Positions 30,333-56,787 of a stretch of DNA of 64,000 nucleotides are shown here, piece by piece. How positions within the stretch are numbered: the first letter of the stretch is position 1; each line of letters starts with the position of its first letter. This DNA comes from Ornatilinea apprima. Its GTDB lineage: Bacteria > Chloroflexota > Anaerolineae > Anaerolineales > Anaerolineaceae. The DNA is taken from assembly GCF_001306115.1 (NCBI RefSeq), contig NZ_LGCL01000023.1, positions 1 to 64,000 of the forward strand, in the 5' to 3' direction. A program made the translations under genes and the position numbers. The notes under the pieces were generated by a model. That model was not told the DNA's origin. It did no database searches and was given only the letters and a program-made list of their open reading frames with translations.

Positions 30333-32690
30333 TCAAATAGAAGGTTTTTCCAATCCTAAAATTCCCGTAACTCGATAATACTGCACCTTCAGACCATCTA
30401 AGATTAGCATGGCGAAGAGTGTAATAACCAATAATATTAAGATGGATTGGAGAGAAACCGCGGCCATCACCCAGCCAAAGGCAGCCATGAGTGTAGCAAC
30501 AACGATATTGACAGCAATCATACCGGCAACCCATTTGCTGGGTGCAAATGACCAGAATTGATCCCTGGTCCGGGTCATAAAGATGGTCGCCATCGCCGAA
30601 TAGATCAGATACAGAAACATCAAGGAACTAATCTGTTCAGGATGTAAATTTTGAACCATTTGGTAAAACCAGAGGAGCCCAAGGCCGAGGGCCAGCCAGC
30701 CGATGGTGAAAATCGCTGATATTTTGGCCAGTTGGGGCATGTTCCAATTTTCAGGGACAGAAGTAGGCCATGCATTGTCTGTCCCTAATGTTAGGGTAAC
30801 TATATCATTCATCACAACAATGAATACAATCAAGCTTAATGAAACGGGGAAAAATCCGGCAAAGATCAATCCAAAGGTTAATAACGCAGCTAACTCGGCT
30901 GTGCGAGCCAATTTTGTAATGGTCCACGTCATCATTCGCCGATAAACGCGGTGGCCGCTATCAATCACCTTGGTGATGTCAGATAATTTAGGCTCAGTTA
31001 AGACAACCCTGGCTGCTGATTTGGCAACATCAGTGGCAGTACTGACGGCAATCCCCACATCCGCTTGCTTCAGCGCTGGTGCATCGTTGATGCCGTCTCC
31101 GGTCATTCCAACAACCATTCCTAATTTCTGTATCACCTGGACAATCCTGTATTTATCCTCGGGGTAAACATTTGCAAATCCGTCAAAATCTAATGGATTA
31201 GATAATGCGTCTTCCAATATCCCAATTCGGCTGCCAATTCCAACTTGCTTAGCAATTGCCCTTGCGGTACCGACCGTATCTCCCGTTAGCATGATGATAC
31301 GGATACCTAATTTTTTGATGCTCGCAATGGATTCCTTGGCATCTTCCCGTGGTGAATCTGCTAATGCAATAAGTCCCTGACAGACCAATTGCTCGTTTTC
31401 TCCGGAAGCAACTGCCAGAACCCTGGATCCTTTCGAACTCAGAAAATCAACCTGGTCTACGTAATTGTCTGGAACTGCTGCAATTTCGCTGATGACTGTA
31501 GGTGAGCCGAGAACTACATTCAAGAGGTTTCCACTTTGGGTGATCTGAGCCTTGGATACTTTGTGGACAGGATCAAAAGCGGTGAAAGATGTTCTCTGAG
31601 GCATGACTAAGTTTTGCGCTTTTAATGCCCCAAGGATTGCCTTGTTGATGGAATCGTTGGATGTATCGTCGCTCGCAGCCGCTGCTAACTTCAGAAGTTC
31701 AGCTTCTTCCAACTGCTCAAATGGAACCAGATCGGCGATTTCAGGGCGATTATTGGTCAAGGTTCCCGTTTTATCAACAAGCAAAACATTCATACTGGCG
31801 GCTTCCTGAATACCGGTCAGTCCCGTTACCAGCACATGTTCTTTGGCTAAATTTTTCGCTTCCAGCGAATTTGCAACGACAAAGCTGGAAGGCATGGAGA
31901 TAGGAATGGTAGCAATGAATAAGATAACTAAGAACGGCAGTAATTCCTGCCAGGGGGTTCCCCGAATAACCGCAGTAACCACAAGGATAACGGCGAGGAT
32001 AACATCTACATACGCAAGGTAGCGGACAATGGTGAACAGTAAGGCTTGCAGCCGCCCCGGAGCTTCTGCGATACGAACCAATTCTGCGGTCTTTCCATAG
32101 GAGCTCTTTGTCCCAATGGCTGATACGCGAGCAATTACCTCACCGTGGTTAATCGTGGATGCAGAAAAAATTGTTTCACCAACTTCCTTGGTTACATCAA
32201 TCGATTCACCTGTAAGCGCTGACTCATCAACACTGACTGTCCCATTGATAATTTCCATATCCGCTGGCACAATATCCCCAACCTTCACGTGCACAATATC
32301 TCCAGGGACCAGCTCACGAGACAGCAATTGCAGCCATTTTCCATTTCTCAAAGTGCGAGCACTGATTTGCAGTTGCTGATGCAAGTACCCAATGGCCTTC
32401 TTGGCTCGATTCTCTTGAATTTGTCCGATCACCGCGGAAAAAATAAGCAACAAAAAAACAACAGCTGCTTGAACCCCCTTACCCAGGATCAATTCAAATA
32501 TCATGGCCGCCTCTAGCAGCCAAGGAATTGGTCCCCACATCCTTTGCAAAATGCCCATGACCGGACCAACATGCTTTTCCGGAATTTCATTGAAACCGTA
32601 TTGTTTTCGTATGGCTTGAAGATCGGCTTCGTTTATACCAGTTCCTTGGTATGTATTTTCAATACCTCCCGTATCCTTATTTAGAAGCAT
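30333..32690 (-). CDS. P3A-type proton-translocating P-type ATPase
   Basis: A complete 785-residue P-type ATPase: LTGES actuator loop near 160, phosphorylation motif DKTGTLT near 306-312, TGDGINDAPALKQADVGIAV hinge, and about ten membrane helices. The amino-terminal WGPIPWLLEAA and overall length match the plasma-membrane H+-ATPase (PMA) group, which pumps protons out. The ATG at 32690 is favoured, since GGAGGA lies 7 bases upstream of it but abuts the ATG at 32696. It lies downstream of a long leader containing a candidate degenerate fluoride aptamer, and beside two fluoride-controlled operons, suggesting a role in surviving HF-driven acidification. Confidence 0.85.
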   Translation of the reverse strand: MLLNKDTGGIENTYQGTGINEADLQAIRKQYGFNEIPEKHVGPVMGILQRMWGPIPWLLEAAMIFELILGKGVQAAVVFLLLIFSAVIGQIQENRAKKAIGYLHQQLQISARTLRNGKWLQLLSRELVPGDIVHVKVGDIVPADMEIINGTVSVDESALTGESIDVTKEVGETIFSASTINHGEVIARVSAIGTKSSYGKTAELVRIAEAPGRLQALLFTIVRYLAYVDVILAVILVVTAVIRGTPWQELLPFLVILFIATIPISMPSSFVVANSLEAKNLAKEHVLVTGLTGIQEAASMNVLLVDKTGTLTNNRPEIADLVPFEQLEEAELLKLAAAASDDTSNDSINKAILGALKAQNLVMPQRTSFTAFDPVHKVSKAQITQSGNLLNVVLGSPTVISEIAAVPDNYVDQVDFLSSKGSRVLAVASGENEQLVCQGLIALADSPREDAKESIASIKKLGIRIIMLTGDTVGTARAIAKQVGIGSRIGILEDALSNPLDFDGFANVYPEDKYRIVQVIQKLGMVVGMTGDGINDAPALKQADVGIAVSTATDVAKSAARVVLTEPKLSDITKVIDSGHRVYRRMMTWTITKLARTAELAALLTFGLIFAGFFPVSLSLIVFIVVMNDIVTLTLGTDNAWPTSVPENWNMPQLAKISAIFTIGWLALGLGLLWFYQMVQNLHPEQISSLMFLYLIYSAMATIFMTRTRDQFWSFAPSKWVAGMIAVNIVVATLMAAFGWVMAAVSLQSILILLVITLFAMLILDGLKVQYYRVTGILGLEKPSI

Positions 32691-33123
32691 TGCCATTCCT
32701 CCTTTTTTTCATTACCTTACTGTAAGTATTTTCCAGTGAATATTTTCGATCGATAGAAACCTTTTAAAACAGATTTTTCCGAAAGTATAAGTAGAAGCAC
32801 TCAGCCAATTCTGGCGGATCCCCGACCTTTCCGAGGAGCGGCAAGCTTCATCGCTATGAAAAAAAGCTTCTCCCAACGGGAAAGTTGCAAAACCGCGCAG
32901 GGTCAGGCAATTAGCATAAGGCTGGTCTGCAAGGATCTTATTCGCTTTACTAGTTTCAGGGACAGCATCCCCGCTCATAATGCACCACGAGCAGCGTTCG
33001 GTGATGATGCCCTTCGGGTTAGCCGTGCAGTAGTTGCCGCGCGCTGCAATATCACCACGATAAATGTACACGCCCACTCCCAACACTTATAAAACGCCGC
33101 GTCCAACTTGGTTCACCGATGGG
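32691..33123 (-). promoter_or_regulatory. 430-base leader of the proton ATPase gene
   Basis: No plausible protein is encoded in this stretch. On the minus strand it contains a possible stem GGTGAT...ATCACC near 33004-33057, a terminator-like hairpin CTTTCCC-GTT-GGGAGAAG followed by seven T residues near 32866-32890, and then the aptamer-like segment at 32791-32855. This order suggests a structured RNA leader, but I do not recognise a known class in its first 200 bases. Confidence 0.4.
32791..32855 (-). promoter_or_regulatory. Candidate degenerate fluoride riboswitch
   Basis: Read on the minus strand it begins AGCGATGAAGCTTGC and CGCT and ends GCC-AGAATT-GGCTGA, then GTGCTTCTAC. The order matches a crcB-motif aptamer: P1 pairing AGCG/CGCT, P3 pairing GCC/GGC, and a GAAGC/GCTTC pairing that replaces GAGGC/GCCTC of the two clear copies in this window, a compensated change. 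The conserved AAAC joint is absent and about 20 extra bases sit between the stems, so it may be degenerate or unrelated. Confidence 0.35.
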
Positions 33124-34617
33124 TTATTGGTCATCTTGAAAAACGATATGATATACATCTTCGCCGAAACTGGTCGGCAATGGTTTCGCTTCGATCAATT
33201 TATACGTTCGCTCTCCATCCTCTTTTCTCTCTGCCCGGAGAAAAATGGCATTTTCCAGCCCTCTATCAAAAAATGAATGTGCGAGATCGTATTGATGGGT
33301 CACAAAGAAGACTTTAACATCCTGTTCTAACAATGCGCTGGTAATTTGCCTGCTGATCTCTGAGCCTTCCCTTTCGTTGGTGGCTGCAAAGGATTCATTA
33401 AACAGGATTAACGAGTTGGATGAAATCGTATCAGCAATATCATCCATCCGGCTCAACTCCTCATCCAGCTTCCCGCTGGTCATGGTCTTGTCTTCTTCTC
33501 TTTTATAATGGGTAAAGACACCCGTACAGAGATTGGCTGTAAAATCGTCGGCGGGTGTAAACATTCCGCTCTGCATCATCAACTGTGCCAGGCCGATGCT
33601 GCGCAGGAAGGTAGATTTACCTCCTTGATTCGCGCCTGTGATCATCACTAAATCTTTCTGATCAGCGTTCACCTCATTACCAACGATCTTTTGTTTCTTC
33701 GTCAAAGCCAGGCAAATATCATATAAACCGTGAAACGAGTGTCTTCGCTCGTTGGTTGGCGCGGGCAAAGGAAGGCAAGTGGCACACCCCATTTGTGCAA
33801 GCTGCTCGTGAAGATTGATGCAGCCGATATAAAAACCTAATTCGATTTGCAACATCTTAAAAAAGTTATCAATATGATCCGCGGATTGTGCGAGCGCATT
33901 GGCGACCAGATCAACACCCGTATCCTTTAGCTCACCCAATGCCCGAGCACCAGCGTCATCCCGATCGGCAATATATATGGAGTAAGCTTCGTTCTCCCGG
34001 ATGAAAATTTCCTTCCACCATTTTGTGCTGAGAGGTTTTCGCAAGATATAATTTGTTCCCTCATTGCCCTGCCCCAGATCTACACTAATCATCACACCTT
34101 CACGGAACTTCAGTTCTTTCAGATGATTTTCGGCAATAGCAAAATAGTTGTCATCCAGTTCTTGCTGGATCATTGCGAAAAATCGTTTGAATCCTTCCGA
34201 CTCGAATAGCGCCGCATTATCATCTGCAATGCCTCTTAATCGCTTCAACAACTCGAAAAGCATTTTTATAAATTCATGAGAACCGCTGAGGATGGCAGTC
34301 GGATAGTGTCCATAGATTCCCAACCATCCCTTTTGTTTGTTGGTCTTTGCTTCAATTGGGAGTTGATAGATTTCTCGGATGACAGAGGGGTATTTTAAGC
34401 AATCCTTAAGAATATCTTGTCGGTAGAGGATGGTATCTATGTCTTCCGTACCAGACAGAATGGAGGTCCTGGCAATATCAAACACAAAATTGTCGCCCTG
34501 CGCCATGGCGTCAAACAGTGTTTTTAATTCCAGGTCTTGGACCAATGCTTTTGCTTGTAGAGGTAAAGGGCAATGCGGGCCAAAATCCTGGTCGCGAAAC
34601 ATAAGGAAAGCTTTCAT
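33124..34617 (-). CDS. MutS-like ATPase, second of a pair
   Basis: The 497-residue protein ends in a MutS domain V ATPase: Walker A TGANQGGKSTFLRSIG at about 335-350, and a Walker-B-type SLILFNESFAATN where Asn/Glu replace the usual DE. Upstream is a helical MutS III/IV-like core. The amino-terminal mismatch-recognition domain of MutS1 is absent, so ordinary mismatch repair is unlikely; the layout is closer to MutS-related proteins of unknown function. Its ATG overlaps the TGA of its partner gene by four bases, so the two are probably made in equal amounts and may form a heterodimer. Control by the fluoride riboswitch upstream is inferred from position. Confidence 0.8.
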   Translation of the reverse strand: MKAFLMFRDQDFGPHCPLPLQAKALVQDLELKTLFDAMAQGDNFVFDIARTSILSGTEDIDTILYRQDILKDCLKYPSVIREIYQLPIEAKTNKQKGWLGIYGHYPTAILSGSHEFIKMLFELLKRLRGIADDNAALFESEGFKRFFAMIQQELDDNYFAIAENHLKELKFREGVMISVDLGQGNEGTNYILRKPLSTKWWKEIFIRENEAYSIYIADRDDAGARALGELKDTGVDLVANALAQSADHIDNFFKMLQIELGFYIGCINLHEQLAQMGCATCLPLPAPTNERRHSFHGLYDICLALTKKQKIVGNEVNADQKDLVMITGANQGGKSTFLRSIGLAQLMMQSGMFTPADDFTANLCTGVFTHYKREEDKTMTSGKLDEELSRMDDIADTISSNSLILFNESFAATNEREGSEISRQITSALLEQDVKVFFVTHQYDLAHSFFDRGLENAIFLRAERKEDGERTYKLIEAKPLPTSFGEDVYHIVFQDDQ

Positions 34618-36149
34618 CGTTTGATGCGCTCCTTTAACAGGTCATGCGTCAGATGATATTTCTCAGCGATATTAAGCGCATACGCCAGGCCGTCGGCGCG
34701 CCTCCGAATAACCTTGAAAGTGCGCAAAGCGGGGTTTTTCGGCACGATCGTGCTGACCATGCTAACCGTTTTTCCGTTTAATGATGCCAGTTCATCAAGA
34801 AACGTCACACAGACACATAACAGATCCAACTGGATAATCTTCTCCATAACCTTGTTGCTCAAATAAACAGCATCCTTCAACGTAGTGGAAGTGAAAACCT
34901 CGTTCATGATGACGATACTTGCCGGTGTTGCCTGTTTCAGAATCTTATGCATTCTTACCAGATCATCCTGTAGTTTGCCGCGTAGATTCTGGATATTCTC
35001 TTCTTTTTCAAAATGGGTGAACAGGTTATCAAATAAGAAGAGCCGGGCATGCCTGCCTGGAACAGGCAGCCCTAGACTGCCCAGGTAATGGATTTGACCG
35101 AACATGCGCGCGAAGGTTGTTTTCCCGCCCTGGTTGGGACCGGAAACGATGATGATCCGCTCTTTACCTGTCAGAAAAATATCGTTGCATATAACCGCCG
35201 CATTTTCTCCGGTCAGCTTATTGGCCAAAGCGATATCAAATCCATCCACTTCGGAAATTTCTTTGCTTACAGCAGAAACCTCAGGATAACAAAATTTCAA
35301 ACCGGCCAACTTGATTTTCTGAATAAATTCCAAATACGCCACATAAAACTGGACTTCCTGATCAAAAACGCGGATGGTCTCATCCAGAAAATTTTGATGC
35401 ATTTTACAGTACTGATCAAGATCCGCGAATGGCTCTGGATGCAACCTTGCGACATAATCAAGAATCTGACCTTCTACATGATTCATGCCAGATGCCTTCC
35501 TAAGCTTGGATCGGTAATCCTTCACAGCACCTTGTTTGAATTTTTCGAATGTCCGCTCAACCTCCCTGCTGTAGTTGATTTCCGATTGATATCTGCGAAC
35601 AATGATTTTTCGATCTTTGATAATGAGCGTGTAGCGAATGGTTGATAAGGCTGCCTTGCGCTGTTCCGTCTCGGTTCGAAGTGTATGGTAATAGGGCGAA
35701 TGCACATAATTATTCAGATATTCTCGAAAGGCGATAAAGCCCCGAGACTTTATTGGAGCCCGCGACAAATCCTCTGCCAGATCGCTGACCGCTTCGCAGT
35801 AAACAAGGGCGGCCTCTAAAAACCATCCTTCTCTGTGGTAGTGAAATTCAAGCTTTTCTACCAGACCGAGATACCGGCGCATCATGATCATTTTTTCCGC
35901 AAAGGTTTTGATGCTTTCAAATACAGAATTATTTTCCAGATCCCGGGCTACTTCCTGGCGATACCTGACCGTCTCGACATCCTTCAAAGGGGAATAGAAG
36001 AACGGCCTAAGGTTATATTCACGCCTGCCAAAGACAATCGCATCGATCACTTGATCCAGGTTCAGATCAGGAAAATATGGAGGCATGATCGCCGATCCAA
36101 TTTGCGTGTGGTCAGGTTGCTGTTCAAACAGGATACTTTGAAAGGTCAT
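34614..36149 (-). CDS. MutS-like ATPase, first of a pair
   Basis: A 511-residue homologue of its neighbour. The ATPase motif is SGPNQGGKTTFARMFG near residue 345, followed by SIVIMNEVFTSTT as the Walker B region. Residues 1-330 form a helical core/clamp-like region. It lacks the MutS mismatch-binding domain. The gene begins about 87 bases after the terminator of a fluoride riboswitch, and MutS-like genes are among those known downstream of this riboswitch class. The role in fluoride stress is unknown; it may act on nucleic acid or simply as a paired ATPase machine. Confidence 0.8.
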   Translation of the reverse strand: MTFQSILFEQQPDHTQIGSAIMPPYFPDLNLDQVIDAIVFGRREYNLRPFFYSPLKDVETVRYRQEVARDLENNSVFESIKTFAEKMIMMRRYLGLVEKLEFHYHREGWFLEAALVYCEAVSDLAEDLSRAPIKSRGFIAFREYLNNYVHSPYYHTLRTETEQRKAALSTIRYTLIIKDRKIIVRRYQSEINYSREVERTFEKFKQGAVKDYRSKLRKASGMNHVEGQILDYVARLHPEPFADLDQYCKMHQNFLDETIRVFDQEVQFYVAYLEFIQKIKLAGLKFCYPEVSAVSKEISEVDGFDIALANKLTGENAAVICNDIFLTGKERIIIVSGPNQGGKTTFARMFGQIHYLGSLGLPVPGRHARLFLFDNLFTHFEKEENIQNLRGKLQDDLVRMHKILKQATPASIVIMNEVFTSTTLKDAVYLSNKVMEKIIQLDLLCVCVTFLDELASLNGKTVSMVSTIVPKNPALRTFKVIRRRADGLAYALNIAEKYHLTHDLLKERIKR

Positions 36150-36236
36150 AAAGGTCTCTTCTCTTGCGATTGTGGCTGGTTCAACATAAACTCCTCAAAC
36201 ATACTCTTATTGCTTAGCCTTAGAAAGGCCATTGCC

Positions 36237-36318
36237 CAAAATAAATAGCCTCTACTGGAGCAAGCGCTCAGTAGAGGCCATCAGTCGGGTGACAGTTTTA
36301 GCGAGCCTCATCGCCATA
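36237..36318 (-). promoter_or_regulatory. Fluoride riboswitch (crcB motif) with terminator, copy 1
   Basis: On the minus strand the aptamer (36315-36269) reads GGCGATGAGGCTCGCT, AAAAC, a GTC/GAC stem, then TGATGGCCTCTACTG, almost identical to the structurally known Thermotoga fluoride aptamer. The 3' strand CCTCTACTG also forms the terminator stem with CAGTAGAGG (36249-36257 with 36269-36277), followed by ATTTATTTT. Fluoride binding should favour the aptamer, block the terminator and turn on the MutS-like pair. Confidence 0.93.
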
Positions 36319-36337
36319 TTATTGAAAAAGCCTATAT

Positions 36338-36343
36338 ATTATA
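36338..36343 (-). promoter_or_regulatory. Promoter -10 box of the MutS-like operon
   Basis: TATAAT lies on the minus strand 22 bases before the fluoride aptamer. A -35 element is weak (TTTCGC or nearby). The position allows transcription to begin just before the aptamer. Confidence 0.5.
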
Positions 36344-36760
36344 TCCGAAAATTCTTGCGAAATCGTTTTCGTACGAGTGGGTAAGGGCCTCTGGGTTTTG
36401 TCACGGCAGTTCCTCAAGAGCCATACTAGATCCTTTCCACTGTTCGAAAACCCTCCACCTTTTTGCGATCCCGGATACCTATACTCCAAACACTTTCTCA
36501 ATATCGAATTAGGATAAATTGATACTTTTTATATTTCAGGTAGTTCTCACTCACAGTGGTTATTGTGGTCATTCCATGGAGAATTACAAAAGGCATATCT
36601 CAATCCGAACGGATTTATAATTCCATCTCCTCAGGCAGGTTCTGGTTGTCAAATGGAAAGTGCTTTCCAGTTTTTCGAGTTAAATTCTACGATCAACACT
36701 TAGCGAGGTTATACTTTCGATTTTCCGCTAAACTTTCCGCTTTTTTTGAAAATGATCTGA
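36344..36760. other. Intergenic stretch, no intact gene
   Basis: It separates the MutS-like operon promoter from the 3' end of the truncated P-type ATPase. A minus-strand frame of 60 codons near 36319-36501 overlaps the promoter and has no family. The AT-rich part at 36500-36760 may be the decayed 3' part of the P-type ATPase gene. Confidence 0.35.
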
Positions 36761-37564
36761 TTATAAAAATTTTGAACCAACCCAAAAATACAAATAGATG
36801 AAGGAAAATACAATGATTAAAATCCTGCCTAATTTACATTGCCTGACTCTATTTTTTATCCTAAAAGCCCCGTCAAGAATTGTGATCAAATCGGTCAGAT
36901 CATTAATCAGGATTTGTGAAAGTTTTCTTGCGATGGAGGAGCTATTGTTCACAAGAGAGATTCCAACATCTGCCACTTTGAGGGCAATTCCATCGTTCGG
37001 TCCATCTCCAACCATTGCAACGGTATTACCTGCTTTTTGAAGCTGTCTGACTAAGATCCCTTTTTGGGAAGGTGTTAATCTCGCAAACACAGAACAATAT
37101 GAGGCTTGCCTGATTACTTCCGCCCATTCCATCCTATCAATGATCCTGCCCGTTAATGCAGCCTTTTGACCAGCAGTTATACCGCTTTCAGCGCCAATGC
37201 GGACCGCGGTTTCTGCTTTATCGCCAGTCAACAACAGACTCCGAATTCCTTTTTGAGCAAATTGTCGAATGATTTCTTGCGTTCCAGGTTGTAATGAATT
37301 TTCCAATTGAAGTAAGCAGAGGAAAGAATATTCTTTCGGAGAATCGTCAAAATTGCCGGATGCGTATGCTAAAGCAATTGCGGTATCTCCATTTTGAGCA
37401 ATAGCCTCGATTTGAGATTTACAAGTCAACCAAAACCCAAAATCATTATTTTCAAGAGACCCGCTCGACGTAAAATGACGATTACACAACTTGTAAATAA
37501 CCTCTGGGTCTCCTTTTGCGAAATAGAAACTACCTGCTGTACTTGTTTCAAATCCACAAGCCAT
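36761..37564 (-). pseudogene. Truncated P-type ATPase, second part (after in-frame stop)
   Basis: This part continues, in the same frame, the fragment at 37589-38455. The PFDSEHRYMACGFE segment of the nucleotide-binding domain follows directly after the stop, then LTGDKAETAVRIG and VGDGPNDGIALKVADVGISL, where the usual TGDGVNDAPALK has changed. Only one membrane helix (near the end) remains of the normal six carboxy-terminal ones. It is either a decayed gene or a soluble-domain remnant expressed separately from an internal start. Confidence 0.7.
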
Positions 37565-37588
37565 ATATCGGTGCTCAGAGTCAAAGGG

Positions 37589-38455
37589 TTAGTCGTAAAT
37601 TCGTTTGTATTGTAATAACAGTTCATTTACATCGATGCGATTTTTTTGAGCAAACCTGATAAGCGCTAAATCAATCGGATTTGCCAGAATGGTTTTCTGA
37701 AAAAACAAAACATCGTTACATAATGCGCAAGCCTTGTAAACCAGTTGAGCTACAGATTCTTCAATATTTTTTGTTCCATTCTCAGTTTCAATAATCAGAT
37801 CCGGGAAATATACTTTCTTGATATCCATTTGCCTCGTCGTAAGCACACCTGTCTTATCAAAACAGACAAGGTTTATATCTCCCATATGTTCCAAAGCGCG
37901 AATATCACGGATTTGTACATGTGCGCGTTTGAGCCTTTTTGATTCGTTCGAAATAATCAGGTACCTGCATAGGTTGTCATTCTGTAGCAAATTGAGGACG
38001 AAAGAAAAGAACAAGAAAATGATCAGCAAGGTAAGATCATAGGATTGAACAAACAAAAGCACAAATACGGGTAAAAACAAAATGATGGTCCATAAATTTT
38101 CCTTGTCGATAATGCGGAACGTATACGGCTGATTCTGTTGACCCTCTTGGCTTAAAACCTTCCCATATTCTGTTTGTTCACCGGTAGAAAGTACTACTCC
38201 TTTCCCGTACCCTCTGATTACTCGACTACCGTGATATGCGATTACGTCATCTTTGGCAATTTTTTTCTCGACCGGTAATAGTTCACCTGTGATCTCAAAT
38301 TCATCGATCTCTAACCCCCTGAATTCAATGAGTCGTAGGTCGGCAGGGACAATATCTCCTGTTTGAATGATAACCAGATCAGAAATACGCAAATCTTTTT
38401 CATCGATATTGGTGAGCTTCCCATCAATTTCAATCGTAACAAGGTTTGCGTTCAT
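37589..38455 (-). pseudogene. Truncated P-type ATPase, first part
   Basis: The 288 residues start in the actuator domain (IIQTGDIVPADLRL), with TGEL in place of TGES, then two membrane helices and FDKTGVLTTRQM in place of DKTGTLT. The first two membrane helices of a normal ATPase are missing, and no ATG, GTG or TTG precedes the ATG at 38455 before a TAA. The frame ends at TAA 37589-37591 and resumes at once in the same frame, so a single nonsense change splits the gene. It follows a CBS-domain gene in a fluoride-riboswitch operon. Confidence 0.75.
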
Positions 38456-38560
38456 GACATTACTCTTTAGTCCTGTTAATGATACATTTCCTCCGGAATA
38501 TCTGGTTGAATTGAATTAATGATCCGGTTTCGCCTTCATCCTTGATTCTTATTATGCTTT

Positions 38561-38995
38561 CTACTCTGATGCGCTTGCACCTAACCCAAGGAGGTATTTT
38601 ACAATGTCGATCCTGTCAATAATACCAACTATCTTTTGATCTTTGGTCACCGCCAAGGGATGCTTGCCCTGGTTGATCATTAATGTGGCAGCTGACATTA
38701 ACGGCGATTCTTCTGTGACGCCGAGAACATACGGAGTCATTAAATTCTCGACGGGTGCATTATCCCACTTCTGAATTAAGGTGTTTTCAATTTGTCGCTG
38801 CATTGGCCTCCCATAACTGGCTGGCACCGGTGAAGTAAAAAGGTCTCTAATACCAATAGCACCAACGAGTTGCTCACCATTAACCACAAATAGAGTTTCT
38901 ACTCCTTCCCTAACCATGATCTCGGCTGCCAAACGTAAGCTCGATTTTGGAGAAATGCACAAAAACTTTGAGCGCATTACATCCTTAACAATCAT
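38561..38995 (-). CDS. CBS-domain protein
   Basis: A 144-residue protein made only of two CBS motifs (about 5-60 and 80-140), e.g. VKDVMRSKFLCISP and GIIDRIDIVKYL. Such modules bind adenine nucleotides or related ligands and regulate partner transporters. AGGAGG precedes the ATG. It is the first gene after the second fluoride riboswitch and is followed by the split P-type ATPase, so it may have been that pump's regulator. Confidence 0.85.
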   Translation of the reverse strand: MIVKDVMRSKFLCISPKSSLRLAAEIMVREGVETLFVVNGEQLVGAIGIRDLFTSPVPASYGRPMQRQIENTLIQKWDNAPVENLMTPYVLGVTEESPLMSAATLMINQGKHPLAVTKDQKIVGIIDRIDIVKYLLGLGASASE

Positions 38996-39070
38996 TGACC
39001 TTACCTCCTGAATTCCTTATCTTCTTTTATTGGGTCAGAATAATTTTCCTTGATAGAACGAATTTAATAG

Positions 39071-39154
39071 ATAAAAAAACCTCTACCAAGGTGAACCTGG
39101 TAGAGGCCATTAGCTGTTTGAGCGATTTATATCTTTTGAGCGAGCCTCATCGCT
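39071..39154 (-). promoter_or_regulatory. Fluoride riboswitch (crcB motif) with terminator, copy 2
   Basis: On the minus strand the aptamer (39154-39099) reads AGCGATGAGGCTCGCT, an unusually long joint, CAAAC, then AGCTAATGGCCTCTACC. P1 is AGCG/CGCT and the GAGGC/GCCTC long-range pairing is kept. The 3' strand CCTCTACCA pairs with TGGTAGAGG to make a terminator followed by TTTTTTT. The segment CGCTCAAA occurs twice, so the aptamer seems to carry an internal duplication. It should control the CBS protein and the split ATPase. Confidence 0.85.
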
Positions 39155-39161
39155 TATTGAT

Positions 39162-39167
39162 ATTATA
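39162..39167 (-). promoter_or_regulatory. Promoter -10 box of the CBS/ATPase operon
   Basis: TATAAT lies on the minus strand 7 bases before the aptamer, so the transcript should begin almost exactly at P1, as in many fluoride riboswitches. The -35 region is weak. Confidence 0.5.
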
Positions 39168-39206
39168 AGCCCATCATAACAAATCGTCCAGCTAAAAATT
39201 CCAAGA

Positions 39207-47059: not shown

Positions 47060-49096
47060 CTATTTTGCCGAGCGCAAGCCGATGATATTCCCTTCCGTGT
47101 CCTGGATCAGGCAAATGTACCCCAGTTGTCCCATTTCAAATTTGGGCTGCAAGACGATGCCGCCAGCGGCCTGGACACGGCTGATAGCCTGGTCCAAATC
47201 ATTCAACTGAAAGTAAACAACTGTTCCCTGTCCCGAAGGCTGGCTATTTTCGTTTTGGATCAGCCAACCCGCAGCACCGGAGGCATTACTTTTTTCTGGA
47301 AAGGCTGCAAATTTGACATCCCCAAAACTCATGGCGAATAAATTGGTACCCAAGACCTGTTCATAAAAGGCTCTGGCGCGGTCAAGATCCTGAACCGGGA
47401 TATCCAACCAGGTGACCACGTTCTGGCCCTTGGTTTCAGGTTTCTCTTTGGACGGGTCATGAACCGAGCGCAAGCCGATGATGTTCCCTTCCGTGTCTTG
47501 GATCAGGCAGATGTACCCCAGTTGCCCCATTTCAAATTTGGGCTGCAAGACGATGCCGCCAGCGGCCTGCACGCGGCTGATGGCCTGGTCCAAATCATCC
47601 ACCTGAAAATAGACAACTGTTCCCTGTCCCGTAGGCTGGTTATTTTCGTTTTGGATCAGCCAACCCGCAGCACCGGAGGCATTACTTTTTTCTGGAAAGG
47701 CTGCAAATTTGACCTCACCGAAACTCATCCCGAATAATTTGATATCCAAGACCTGTTCATAAAAAGCTTTGGCGCGGTCAAGATCCTGAACCGGGATATC
47801 GAACCAGGTAACCACATTCTGGCCCTTGGTTTCAGGTTTCTCTTTGGACGGGTCGTAAACAATTTTCCCCGATTGAAAAACATAGACAATTCTGCGAATT
47901 TCTGAGATGTTGCTGGTCGGGTCGCCATCCACCAGAACCAAATCAGCGATTTTTCCTTGTTCAATCGTGCCAATCTCATTTGCTAGTCCCAGGTGTTGAG
48001 CGGCATTGCTGGTCGCCGCGATGATAATCTGCATCGGGGTCATGCCTGCCTGCTGCATCAACTCCATTTCCTCAATCTCGGCCGCGCCGCCAGTTTGGAA
48101 GGAGCAGTTCATATCGGTGCCCATCGCAATCGAAACACCCGCATCAGAAAAATCTTTCAGGTTTTGCATGGAGATGGGAAGTTTTTGCGCATCGGTCGAG
48201 GTTTGCAGGATTTGCAGCGTGGGCACAAAGAAAGCTTGTTTCTCGATGAGCAACTGCGGCAAGGCATCGCCTGTCAGGCGCATCCCCACCAGACCATGCT
48301 CGATGCCGTCGGCCCCGGCTTCCAGTGCCTCCATCGCGTCCTGCTCATACCAGACATGCACGGTAGCGCGCAGGTTTTGTTTGTGCGCCTCATCGATGAC
48401 GGCTCGCAACACCTCTTCAGAGAGTTTTTGAACCACAACCGGCTGGTCAAAAGTCTCCATCTCGCCGCCCTGATAAGACAGCTTGATGGCATCAATCTTC
48501 CTGGCGGCCAATTCGCGTACCTTTTCCCGGGCAATCTCGGCGTCGTCCACTTCAATGGACATCTGCGCGCGCGACCAGGGATCATCGGCAGTCAGGGTCA
48601 GCGCGGGATGCCCGTCTGGGGCGGTGAAATTGGGGCCAACAGTGAGCAGCCGCGGGCCAGGAATTTTCTGATCTTGCAGTTGTTGTCGTAATTCCAGAAC
48701 AATGTCGAGCGGGTCATTCAGTGACTTGATCGTAGTGACCCCATGTTTCAAGAAGTTATTCATCTGTGTGGGAATCTGGTTCTCCAGCAATGCGCGGTAA
48801 GCCGCTTCGCCTTTGTCAAAGCTGTAGAAAATATGCAAATGAGCATCAATGAGACCCGGCATCAGGCTTTTTCCGGTGCCATCAATGATCTGCGCACCGC
48901 TGATGTTCACCGCCTCGGTCGAAATGGTTTGAATAAGGCCATCCTTAATCACAACCGAGGCTGTTGGCAAAATTTTTCCATTGCCGACGATGACGCGAAC
49001 ATTCTTTATAACGATTGTTTCCGGAGTTCCTGATGAACAGCCTGCCATTCCAAAAGTGAAGGCAAATATAAGTAAGATGGGAATAAATTTTTTCAT
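47060..49096 (-). CDS. Lipoprotein amidohydrolase fused to two glyoxalase-like domains
   Basis: Residues 1-20 form a lipoprotein signal ending FGMAGC. Residues 30-410 are an amidohydrolase barrel with DAHLHIF, KLSYQGG, ATVHVWYE, GIEHGL and GTDMN, giving a usual two-metal site. From about 415 there are two copies of a VOC/glyoxalase domain (WFDIPVQDLDRAKAFYEQVL) of 132 residues each, almost identical to each other. Both carry the NASGAAGWLIQ block. Such domains bind metals or small ligands. The two copies arise from an exact-length 396 bp tandem duplication. The start has AAGGAG upstream. Substrate is unknown. Confidence 0.8.
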   Translation of the reverse strand: MKKFIPILLIFAFTFGMAGCSSGTPETIVIKNVRVIVGNGKILPTASVVIKDGLIQTISTEAVNISGAQIIDGTGKSLMPGLIDAHLHIFYSFDKGEAAYRALLENQIPTQMNNFLKHGVTTIKSLNDPLDIVLELRQQLQDQKIPGPRLLTVGPNFTAPDGHPALTLTADDPWSRAQMSIEVDDAEIAREKVRELAARKIDAIKLSYQGGEMETFDQPVVVQKLSEEVLRAVIDEAHKQNLRATVHVWYEQDAMEALEAGADGIEHGLVGMRLTGDALPQLLIEKQAFFVPTLQILQTSTDAQKLPISMQNLKDFSDAGVSIAMGTDMNCSFQTGGAAEIEEMELMQQAGMTPMQIIIAATSNAAQHLGLANEIGTIEQGKIADLVLVDGDPTSNISEIRRIVYVFQSGKIVYDPSKEKPETKGQNVVTWFDIPVQDLDRAKAFYEQVLDIKLFGMSFGEVKFAAFPEKSNASGAAGWLIQNENNQPTGQGTVVYFQVDDLDQAISRVQAAGGIVLQPKFEMGQLGYICLIQDTEGNIIGLRSVHDPSKEKPETKGQNVVTWLDIPVQDLDRARAFYEQVLGTNLFAMSFGDVKFAAFPEKSNASGAAGWLIQNENSQPSGQGTVVYFQLNDLDQAISRVQAAGGIVLQPKFEMGQLGYICLIQDTEGNIIGLRSAK
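47070..47861. repeat. Tandem duplication of 396 bp
   Basis: The block beginning GAGCGCAAGCCGATGAT at 47070 recurs at 47466, exactly 396 bases later, with high identity across about 390 bases. The period of 132 codons keeps the reading frame and duplicates one glyoxalase-like domain. The few differences suggest a recent event with some drift. Confidence 0.85.
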
Positions 49097-55392: not shown

Positions 55393-56787
55393 TCAGCGAT
55401 TCAAGTTGGCGGATTCAATTACCTTTTGGGCTGGTTGCACCATTTGGCGTGTGATCTGTTGGTTAAAACCCTTACGGAAGGGTGGTATACGTAGTAAACC
55501 AAGCATGATGGAATTGGTGATTCGCGAAAGCCAATTGCGCTGTGGAAAGGTCTTATAAAAGCCCAATCGTTGGTACGCGTGGTGATCAGCCCGGAAAACC
55601 ATACGCAGGCGGCCCCAAATATCATCACGGAAGACCTTCAACCCACCTTCCCCAAGAAACGTCATCGGGCGGGTAGCGCGTGCCTCCGCCATTTGCACTG
55701 CAGAAACCATCAGCTGTTGCAGCAGCCGCTCGATTTCAGATGCATCACCATATTCATCACTGACCAGACCAACAATATTAGCCTGCTGAAATTCGGCGTA
55801 TCCATATAAAATTTCTTGTAGGTTTGGCAACTGGCTGACGGGACCGGAAATTACATAAGCAAGTTGTTTTCCAATCAACACCGGGGTGTGGGTATTGAAG
55901 AAAGAACGGTCAAAAAAAGTTTTCCAACGAGAGGAAAGGTAGCGATCAACAACCGTCCCCGCGTAGACCAGCACATCCGCAGTCATAATCGTTGTGCGAT
56001 AGAACTCGGTAAAACTGTCTTTCCCCTCAAACGAACAAACATTGTTGTACCCACAATGCAAGCATCCCTGGCAGCTGGATTTAATCTCAACCTGGTTAAG
56101 GTCAATTACCTGCACATTTCCAGAAATCGCCGCCTGGCATGTTTTAACCATTTCCTCGATGTTGCTGCCTGGCCGTCCGCCATCGTACACAATTACCACC
56201 TTCTTTTCTCCCGCATCAAGCATCGCGGATATCAGTGATGCCTTGTAGAGAAATTCACGTTGAGATAGGGGTGGATATTGCCGCTGTGTCAACGCCCTGG
56301 ATTCAATAGCGTGGAGAAACCGCTGCCCAAACTGTTTCAATTGGGTTCGGCCTTTTTCCTCAAGGAGATCAACCATATCGGGTGAAAATGCTTCAATATA
56401 CCGCATACCCCAATCGTCACAGATACCATGAATGTAGTTATGAGCAGTATGGTCAAAGAAATGAATGCTGGTAAAAAGTGAAGCGGCGTATTTTCCAGCG
56501 AAAGCATCCATCACTCCCCGTTCATTCACCAATTCAATAAAACGCTTGTAATGAGCATGCACAATGAGTATGTAGAGGGGAAATGCCCACAAAACTCCAT
56601 CCGCTAAACGCACGCGGGATATGATTTTGTCAAACTCCTGGGGGTCGGTCTCTATCTTTCGAATCTGTTGGGCAATATTTACCGATTCAAAAGAAACTTC
56701 AGGGTGAATCTTTTGCAGGTAATTTACATACTGCATGGTCACACTGATGCCCCCTTTGGGGCTTCCGTTCAACACGAGGATTTTCAT
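55393..56787 (-). CDS. Tandem flavodoxin-type NAD(P)H oxidoreductase
   Basis: The 464-residue protein contains two FMN-reductase-like domains: one at 1-190 (LVLNGSPKGGIS, WAFPLYILIVHAHYKRF) and another at about 195-380 with CQGCLHCGYNNVC, an iron-sulfur-flavoprotein type cysteine motif. The rest is a helical tail. It should accept electrons from NAD(P)H and pass them by flavin and perhaps an iron-sulfur cluster. GGAAAGGAA precedes the ATG. A PadR box lies about 30 bases upstream of its start, and the divergent-side PadR gene is its likely regulator. Confidence 0.8.
   Translation of the reverse strand: MKILVLNGSPKGGISVTMQYVNYLQKIHPEVSFESVNIAQQIRKIETDPQEFDKIISRVRLADGVLWAFPLYILIVHAHYKRFIELVNERGVMDAFAGKYAASLFTSIHFFDHTAHNYIHGICDDWGMRYIEAFSPDMVDLLEEKGRTQLKQFGQRFLHAIESRALTQRQYPPLSQREFLYKASLISAMLDAGEKKVVIVYDGGRPGSNIEEMVKTCQAAISGNVQVIDLNQVEIKSSCQGCLHCGYNNVCSFEGKDSFTEFYRTTIMTADVLVYAGTVVDRYLSSRWKTFFDRSFFNTHTPVLIGKQLAYVISGPVSQLPNLQEILYGYAEFQQANIVGLVSDEYGDASEIERLLQQLMVSAVQMAEARATRPMTFLGEGGLKVFRDDIWGRLRMVFRADHHAYQRLGFYKTFPQRNWLSRITNSIMLGLLRIPPFRKGFNQQITRQMVQPAQKVIESANLNR

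Follow-up and report, generated by a model that had tools for sequence, protein, structure and literature searches.

Fluoride riboswitches of the crcB-motif class are described in print together with their ligand and with the genes that they precede, among them crcB, enolase, antiporters and a gene labelled 'mutS' (PMC2864571 and PMC11139923, in the accessible parts of both papers). A riboswitch-controlled island of this kind, the FRM operon ppaC-uspA-eno-gpmA-crcB-orf5249 of Enterobacter cloacae, raised fluoride resistance experimentally, and its extra enolase was argued to offset inhibition of the enzyme (PMC5533749, likewise as far as the available text goes). Since 2010 the 'mutS' label tied to fluoride switches has steered thinking to DNA damage. 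Here, a stretch of 64,000 nucleotides from Ornatilinea apprima (contig NZ_LGCL01000023.1, positions 1 to 64,000, hereafter the window) was analysed, in which a minus-strand block carries two fluoride riboswitches, one heading a pair of MutS-like ATPase genes and the other an operon for a two-CBS-domain protein and a reduced, "mini" P-type ATPase (Table 1). According to the data, truncated MutS-core ATPases are encoded as coupled pairs that are widespread and accompany fluoride switches in many phyla. We favour, with confidence only somewhat above even, a reading in which a fluoride regulon extends across the genome, with the block as its local portion and with an ATP-driven remodeller of a poisoned target among its products.

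Both leaders were recovered in a covariance search with the Rfam model RF01734 (gathering cut-off 34 bits), with scores of 35.6 bits (E = 3.5e-6) for aptamer 1 and 34.8 bits (E = 6.5e-6) for aptamer 2, and these were the only Rfam matches above gathering in the window. The two crcB-motif riboswitches that a first-pass annotation had read from the letters by eye were thereby confirmed, and the overlapping terminators and upstream TATAAT boxes that it had described were found as well. A local covariance model, R2, built from the 27 aptamers described next and thus trained on both leaders, gave 55.4 and 61.8 bits for aptamers 1 and 2, respectively; R2 and a further local model, R3, were partly trained on the loci that they scanned, and the Rfam searches are the independent ones. 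In an alignment of the two aptamers with 25 others from the same and other Chloroflexota genomes (27 aptamers, 26 distinct sequences), helices P1 and P2 and the pseudoknot were paired in 98.5% of cells, and eight of the 13 pairs were changed on both sides, giving compensatory support for all three elements. The covariation score was reached by none of 500 shuffles, in an alignment that is biased towards the RF01734 structure because its sequences were chosen by RF01734 searches. The RNAalifold consensus kept the pseudoknot and omitted P1, and R2 was built with P1 and P2. In leader 1 the 5' arm of the terminator is the aptamer's 3' pseudoknot strand, and the corresponding hairpin of leader 2 (36248-36278) is followed by TATTTATTTT; in both leaders a strong hairpin with a T-rich tail occupies that strand. 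Judged from this arrangement, both leaders are laid out as ON switches whose predicted expression platform competes with the aptamer, and both very probably work as fluoride-responsive switches.

The two proteins encoded behind aptamer 2, here termed subunits A and B, had been described at first pass as twin MutS-like ATPases, a description that holds for the ATPase domain and not for an ordinary MutS. Domain V passed in the Pfam scan for both, and no other MutS domain was found at E ≤ 0.1, in a scan that is weak on domain absence, as it misses domain III of A and B as well. The AlphaFold models (predicted local distance difference test, pLDDT, 86.5 for A and 85.2 for B) matched MutS structures over nearly the whole chain, corresponding to domains III-V, with Z scores of 26-30 in the best rows. 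The matched part of E. coli MutS ran from about residue 257 to residues 765-792 in most rows, a few starting earlier (7ai7, 1ng9); because MutS residues from about 257 onwards fill the 497-511 residues of the two chains, A and B are without the mismatch-binding domain I and the connector domain II. Likewise, the cut-offs of the equivalog models were missed at least 5-fold by both subunits, for full-length MutS (NF003810/TIGR01070, 82.7/63.9 bits for A and 65.7/62.9 for B, 480/641.7 being needed) as well as for MutS2 (TIGR01069, 61.8 bits for A and 66.5 for B against a cut-off of 400). The Walker B Asp, which by alignment corresponds to D693 in the Asp-Glu pair D693-E694 of E. coli MutS, is replaced by Asn in all 63 A sequences and in 75 of the 76 B sequences, with the following Glu invariant. 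A tree built from 50 sequences separated A from B, each as a clade (100/100), and both from MutS and MutS2, with the deep order unsure and the branches long; the tree left out six of the 12 comparison loci, which were without a usable open reading frame, and E. coli, on a long branch, was the only representative of MutS1. A 4-nt overlap of the two genes, present in 55 of the 59 pairs, suggests translational coupling. Rather than ordinary mismatch-repair proteins, A and B are paralogous ATPases built on the MutS core (domains III-V), and mismatch repair is probably not their task.

A wider role in DNA repair, with the pair as a sliding clamp descended from MutS and protecting or mending DNA during fluoride stress, has to be weighed against the same data. 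A MutS-type core can encircle DNA, and the core and ATPase regions are recognisable in both models; moreover, such a role was suggested in print by Weinberg et al. 2010 for 'mutS' behind crcB-motif RNAs (accessible part of PMC2864571). Yet in most of the E. coli rows there is no room in A and B for a mismatch-binding or connector domain, the MutS and MutS2 cut-offs are missed by a wide factor, the Walker B Asp is replaced almost throughout, and the genome encodes other MutS-family proteins (frames of 806 and 860 aa), so that we consider this role unlikely. Where the first-pass annotation inferred 'repair or remodelling', 'MutS' need not mean DNA repair: domains I-II are absent, the cut-offs are missed and other MutS-family proteins are present.

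The fold matches also bring in ribosome rescue, in which the pair, like the MutS2 core, would split ribosomes stalled by fluoride, for instance through GTPases trapped by fluoride-metal-GDP. MutS2 of Bacillus subtilis, a MutS-core ATPase, splits stalled ribosomes using its ATPase (PMC10897456, accessible part). MutS2 cores are among the best fold matches, the whole core being matched by both models (7vuk_B, Z 28.1 for B and 26.9 for A), but MutS1 structures match A and B equally well. The KOW and Smr domains, which recruit MutS2 to collided ribosomes, do not fit the lengths of A and B; Smr is absent from the Pfam results for both, and the chains stop at the ATPase domain. Furthermore, no translation gene occurs among the named neighbour families of the pair, several clusters being unnamed, and ribosome rescue appears improbable, to about the same degree as DNA repair.

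Three more specific readings of the pair were tried and rejected. The Walker B Asn is not an adaptation specific to fluoride, as it is also found in seven of seven members of a single-copy sister family whose loci carry a riboswitch in none of seven cases. A kinship with KamC, the reactivase ATPase of lysine 5,6-aminomutase (NF052383) and the best NCBIfam match of B, failed at 47.5 bits for A and 74.5 for B against a cut-off of 300; in the genome search other MutS-family frames reached about 180-227 bits among the matches listed and the pair 47-80, and the cut-off was exceeded in none of 151 genomes. Because these other frames (648-1046 aa, identified by frame only) score far higher, the KamC relation is not special to the pair, and with no publication on KamC found in the literature search it serves as a precedent by name only. 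Anti-phage defence was dropped after PADLOC, run on four proteins, gave weak ATPase matches only. As separate observations, the single-copy family (L072-L078) comprises MutS-like proteins of about 550-600 aa from other Chloroflexota with an Asn-Glu Walker B, and the structure 3k0s is, by its title, E. coli MutS D693N, from which nothing was inferred.

The association of the pair with fluoride switches extends well beyond the window. At least 583 relatives of subunit B were found among genome contigs, and the neighbourhoods of the best 80 of these were retrieved. Judging by their record titles, these belong to Chloroflexi, Clostridia, Proteobacteria, Spirochaetes, Acidobacteria, Bacteroidetes, Caldatribacterium and others, many of the 80 being metagenome bins whose titles may err. 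Carriers that can be cultured are among them, for example Anaerolinea thermolimosa, Moorella sulfitireducens and Variovorax sp. Sphag1AA. RF01734 scored above its cut-off in 20 of 20 genomes hand-picked from these 80 loci. Among 301 Chloroflexota genomes, with the pair called at E below 1e-50, an RF01734 match (E ≤ 0.001) was present in 28 of the 34 genomes with the pair vs 67 of the 267 without it (Fisher p = 1.1e-10, a statistic that ignores kinship). At E ≤ 0.01, 30 of 33 pair-bearing genomes had a match, as did one of seven that carry the single-copy family only, and 19 of these 40 genomes passed the RF01734 cut-off. Of the contig loci, 39 of 69 had a same-strand riboswitch at most 600 nt upstream of the pair, as had 20 of the 34 Chloroflexota loci (the two pairs of the O. 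apprima genome included). With the whole locus counted, the figures were 60 of 78 contig loci and 30 of 35 Chloroflexota loci, all these tallies deriving partly from models trained on those loci. Two of the 80 contig loci, without an assigned open reading frame, were dropped from the tally, and nine of the 78 had less than 300 nt upstream. The Rfam matches of L147 and L152 were entered manually, two weak R2 matches in L154 (E 0.06-0.07) were dropped, and weak ones up to E 0.04 were kept. Genes in the loci were called by our own script as the longest conserved open reading frames, not taken from annotation. Viewed from the RNA side, 138 riboswitch sites have a gene within 700 nt, and at 50 of them the pair comes first; nearly all of these loci were fetched for the pair. 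A very dense fluoride island was also encountered, with ten RF01734 matches in 30 kb, six of them below gathering (G116:C30:185935-215361, partly covered by L043).

Table 1 Features of the fluoride-response block, in window coordinates
Feature	Position	Strand	Remarks
Fluoride riboswitch aptamer 1	39094..39163	-	Heads CBS / mini-P-type ATPase operon
-10 box TATAAT, leader 1	39162..39167	-	TGGACG 17 nt upstream (from 39190); promoter scan, 10/12 consensus
Intrinsic terminator, leader 1	39078..39108	-	Terminator scan; fold z -4.2 vs shuffles
Two-CBS-domain protein, 144 aa	38561..38995	-	PF00571, 1.1e-20
Mini-P-type ATPase frame	36761..38455	-	Single in-frame TAA at 37589-37591
-10-like TATAAT, leader 2	36338..36343	-	Read by eye; not listed by promoter scan
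Fluoride riboswitch aptamer 2	36265..36324	-	Heads MutS-like pair
Terminator-like hairpin, leader 2	36248..36278	-	Overlaps aptamer 2; fold z -5.4; not in scan list
MutS-like subunit A, 511 aa	34614..36149	-	PF00488, 1.8e-17; Walker A GPNQGGKT, Walker B MNE
MutS-like subunit B, 497 aa	33124..34617	-	PF00488, 3.8e-20; start overlaps stop of A by 4 nt
Degenerate fluoride aptamer	32785..32864	-	Upstream of H+-ATPase; R2 24.3 bits, E 2.6e-5; R3 18.7 bits
P3A-like plasma-membrane H+-ATPase, 787 aa, open frame	30333..32696	-	TIGR01647

The genes that accompany the pair were tallied in 113 loci with a pair member, the neighbour clusters being named from single representatives or by eye and several left unnamed. 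The most frequent were an MFS transporter (32 loci), enolase (24), a dynamin-like GTPase (21) and CrcB (14), followed by a phosphoglycerate-mutase-like protein and a CBS cluster (11 each) and by a Na+/H+ antiporter, UspA, a soluble HAD protein and a helical protein, X14 (10 each). Directly beside the pair and on its strand, MFS was found in eight loci, enolase in six, CrcB in five, and dynamin-like and hydrogenase-like proteins in four each, making enolase the enzyme that most often adjoins the pair among the named clusters. X14, one member of which gave no Pfam or NCBIfam match, is fused ahead of a complete enolase in L117:5448-7214 (-), with Enolase_N starting at residue 166, and the X14 part of this fusion matches the stand-alone X14 proteins; as one fusion from one bin, this is a lead and not a proof. 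Ten of the 11 members of the CBS cluster begin with a DUF190-like stretch, and the member L040:12383-13849 carries DUF190 followed by CBS domains (Pfam, run on L040 only), the cluster being situated behind crcB or the MutS-like pair. The dynamin-like GTPase, represented by L101:6292-8028, adjoins the pair in four of its 21 loci.

The genome of O. apprima itself contains six RF01734 matches, five above the cut-off, two of which lie in the window. On contig C19 (L008) a match of 42 bits precedes crcB and DUF190 (Pfam); the CrcB frame (PF02537, 102.3 bits, G000:C19:9204-9539) lies directly behind it and is the sole CrcB in the genome. On contig C34, RF01734 matches precede a second MutS-like pair, a 169-aa protein divergent from that pair and, in L007, a 163-aa unknown protein together with an enolase, one of two copies in the genome and the one near a switch. 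This second fluoride block (L007:6589-9839), with three riboswitches, has the second pair facing the small proteins and the extra enolase. One CLC-family protein is encoded elsewhere in the genome, on contig C7. The block had been described as lacking a fluoride exporter, which is correct for the window, where neither CrcB nor CLC was found, and does not extend to the organism, because CrcB lies on C19 behind its own switch.

The operon behind aptamer 1 had been read as a CBS protein plus a split P-type ATPase. Pfam supported both families, and the apparent split is a single frame broken by one TAA. Relatives of the mini-P-type ATPase at E ≤ 1e-70 occur in five of 298 genomes of the class, four of them stop-free and the window's with the one stop; L123 comes from one of the four stop-free genomes, and including copies in L079 and the cut-short L127 the family has seven members. 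The open frames in the five genomes span 563-653 aa and begin at the A domain. The A, P and N domains are kept, M1-M2 and the helices past one C-terminal segment are missing, and the motifs TGE, DKTG, KG[DE]P and GDGxND are present in the seven-member alignment, with the last one missing from L127. Ion-pump P-type ATPases have six to ten helices; in the seven rows hydropathy gave two to four hydrophobic segments, short of a membrane domain of at least six helices. The mini-P-type ATPase is unlikely to be an ion pump, and that it serves in regulation or as a phosphatase is conjecture. At the position of the stop the other six members have a variable residue (Q, L, L, K, L, K), so the TAA reflects either a nonsense mutation acquired recently or a mistake in the assembly. 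A fluoride riboswitch is found on the contig of six of the seven members, and in L164 it directly precedes the mini-P match (958-1039 and from 1143, respectively). For the L123 member, no riboswitch was found on its 9-kb contig, nor at E ≤ 0.01 in its genome, G450 (75% complete). A CBS protein clustering with the 144-aa protein of the window occurs in the fluoride operon of L132. In addition, small soluble HAD proteins resembling a lone P domain of a P-type ATPase occur at L130:5930-6400 and in nine other loci with the pair, and together with the mini-P-type ATPases they suggest a common theme.

The block is completed by a P3A-like H+-ATPase frame that matches TIGR01647 across the full model with 590.3 bits, slightly below the curated cut-off of 615.5. 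The 'suspicious leader' noticed at first pass in front of this gene proved to be a degenerate fluoride aptamer, recognised by R2 and R3; RF01734 gave nothing there even at E ≤ 1, no terminator was seen, and folding was no better than that of shuffles (z -0.64). This third leader is probably a dead, decayed riboswitch. A further reading is pure pH homeostasis, in which the P-type ATPases of the block would expel protons released from hydrogen fluoride (HF), with the MutS-like pair as a passenger. The open H+-ATPase frame starts 427 nt downstream of the pair, behind the aptamer relic, and Na+/H+ antiporters, seen as a cluster in 10 of the 113 pair loci, are the next-most common riboswitch-associated class after exporters (PMC11139923, accessible part). 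Conversely, the aptamer of the H+-ATPase is degenerate and absent from the Rfam results, the mini-P-type ATPase is without most of its transmembrane helices and is interrupted by a stop codon here, and the pair occupies first position at more than a third of the riboswitch sites (in loci mostly fetched for it). As a full account of the block, pH homeostasis is very unlikely. The pH component proposed at first pass is plausible in other islands, by virtue of the antiporter cluster; in the window it would have to rely on an ATPase with a decayed leader and on a helix-poor, stop-bearing one.

In combination, the riboswitches, the genes and the co-occurrence support a fluoride-response module that reaches beyond export, as first proposed. 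What the data show is the switch architecture, the genes, their conservation and co-occurrence and the loss of domains, whereas the response to fluoride, the heterodimer and the remodelling are inferred. Fluoride enters the cell as HF, and fluoride aptamers bind it with Mg, whereupon the terminators fail to form. Upon fluoride entry the two aptamers of the window would fold, the overlapping terminators would be blocked and both operons would be switched on, yielding the coupled MutS-core ATPase pair on the one hand and the CBS protein with the mini-P-type ATPase, stop-interrupted here, on the other. CrcB, encoded elsewhere behind its own switch, would export fluoride, and the second enolase copy behind a switch would offset the fluoride-inhibited enzyme. 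For the MutS-like pair, the favoured role is that of a heterodimer which, powered by ATP, would clamp onto a target poisoned during fluoride stress and remodel it; we infer this from the absence of the mismatch domains, the presence of other MutS-family proteins, the fluoride context and the precedent of MutS2. That this target is a fluoride-poisoned protein is a tentative proposal, held at clearly less than even confidence; the best single candidate would be a protein of the enolase kind, and a ribosome or nucleic-acid target is possible. A bolder version, in which the pair is a fluoride-induced reactivase that frees a glycolytic metalloenzyme, most likely enolase, from a dead-end complex of Mg, fluoride and phosphate, X14 its adaptor or a shield of enolase, and the mini-P-type ATPase, now devoid of an ion path, a fluoride-responsive aspartyl-phosphatase or a trap for the phosphate analogue, is speculative and more doubtful than either DNA repair or ribosome rescue; if true, enzyme reactivation would be a new job for the MutS fold.

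Several observations weigh against the remodelling regulon that we favour. The targets named for the pair are candidates, and it may bind DNA. The Walker B Asn is shared with the single-copy sister family, in whose loci no switch was found, the enzyme-reactivase lead through KamC failed, and the genes adjoining the pair are mixed, ranging from MFS, enolase and CrcB to dynamin-like and hydrogenase-like proteins. Within Chloroflexota, six of the 34 pair genomes are without a detected riboswitch and 67 riboswitch genomes are without the pair, and no switch was found in L107, L120, L124, L139, L156 and L158 despite long upstream flanks. Finally, the stated contamination of the genome bin is 8.7%, so that C19 and C34 may derive from another organism than the window does.

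Two further observations concern other parts of the window. At 47060-49096 (-) an amidohydrolase-like protein is encoded whose C-terminal half contains a tandem pair of almost identical domains that look glyoxalase/VOC-like by eye, and at 55694-55758 (-) a weak match to the local aptamer model (16.4 bits, E 0.0055) within an open reading frame is probably due to chance.

Why fluoride should require MutS, a question left hanging since 2010, becomes accessible to direct experiment, with a promoter, an inducer and culturable hosts at hand, and export emerges as just one part of how bacteria respond to fluoride. The coupled truncated pair, its spread and the mini-P-type ATPase were not met in the literature searched, most subscription journals lying outside it, and PMC2864571 alone was pertinent in searches on fluoride switches with MutS. 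The mini-P-type ATPase and the enolase-linked helical protein represent two families that we could not match to a described one, no literature search having been aimed at the latter. With the described RF01734 regulons, the system seen here and in the other loci shares the aptamer, the pseudoknot and the terminator-type ON switch, as well as crcB, DUF190, enolase, phosphoglycerate mutase, UspA and Na+/H+ antiporter as companions; the differences are that 'mutS' is here a coupled, truncated paralogue pair with a changed Walker B motif, and that the mini-P-type ATPase is an addition not encountered in the accessible text. The FRM operon is alike in being an island under riboswitch control that includes eno, phosphoglycerate mutase, uspA and crcB, and unlike in that the six genes listed in the available text include neither a MutS-like pair nor a CBS protein, its orf5249, annotated there as a divalent cation transporting ATPase, spanning 261 bp only. 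Compared with P-type ATPases in general, the mini-P-type ATPase has the A-domain TGE, the DKTG phosphorylation motif, KG[DE]P and GDGxND, and its closest NCBIfam model is the PMR1-type Ca2+ ATPase (241.7 bits, cut-off 798.3), whereas it differs from the ion pumps in starting at the A domain and ending one hydrophobic segment after the P domain. The MutS2 cores of Thermus thermophilus (7vuk), Thermotoga maritima (9kce) and B. subtilis (7qv3) likewise have no mismatch domain and match A and B with Z scores of 26-28 over about 350-420 residues; the pair is unlike MutS2 in having no KOW or Smr domain, in comprising two coupled paralogues instead of one gene, and in carrying NE rather than DE in Walker B.

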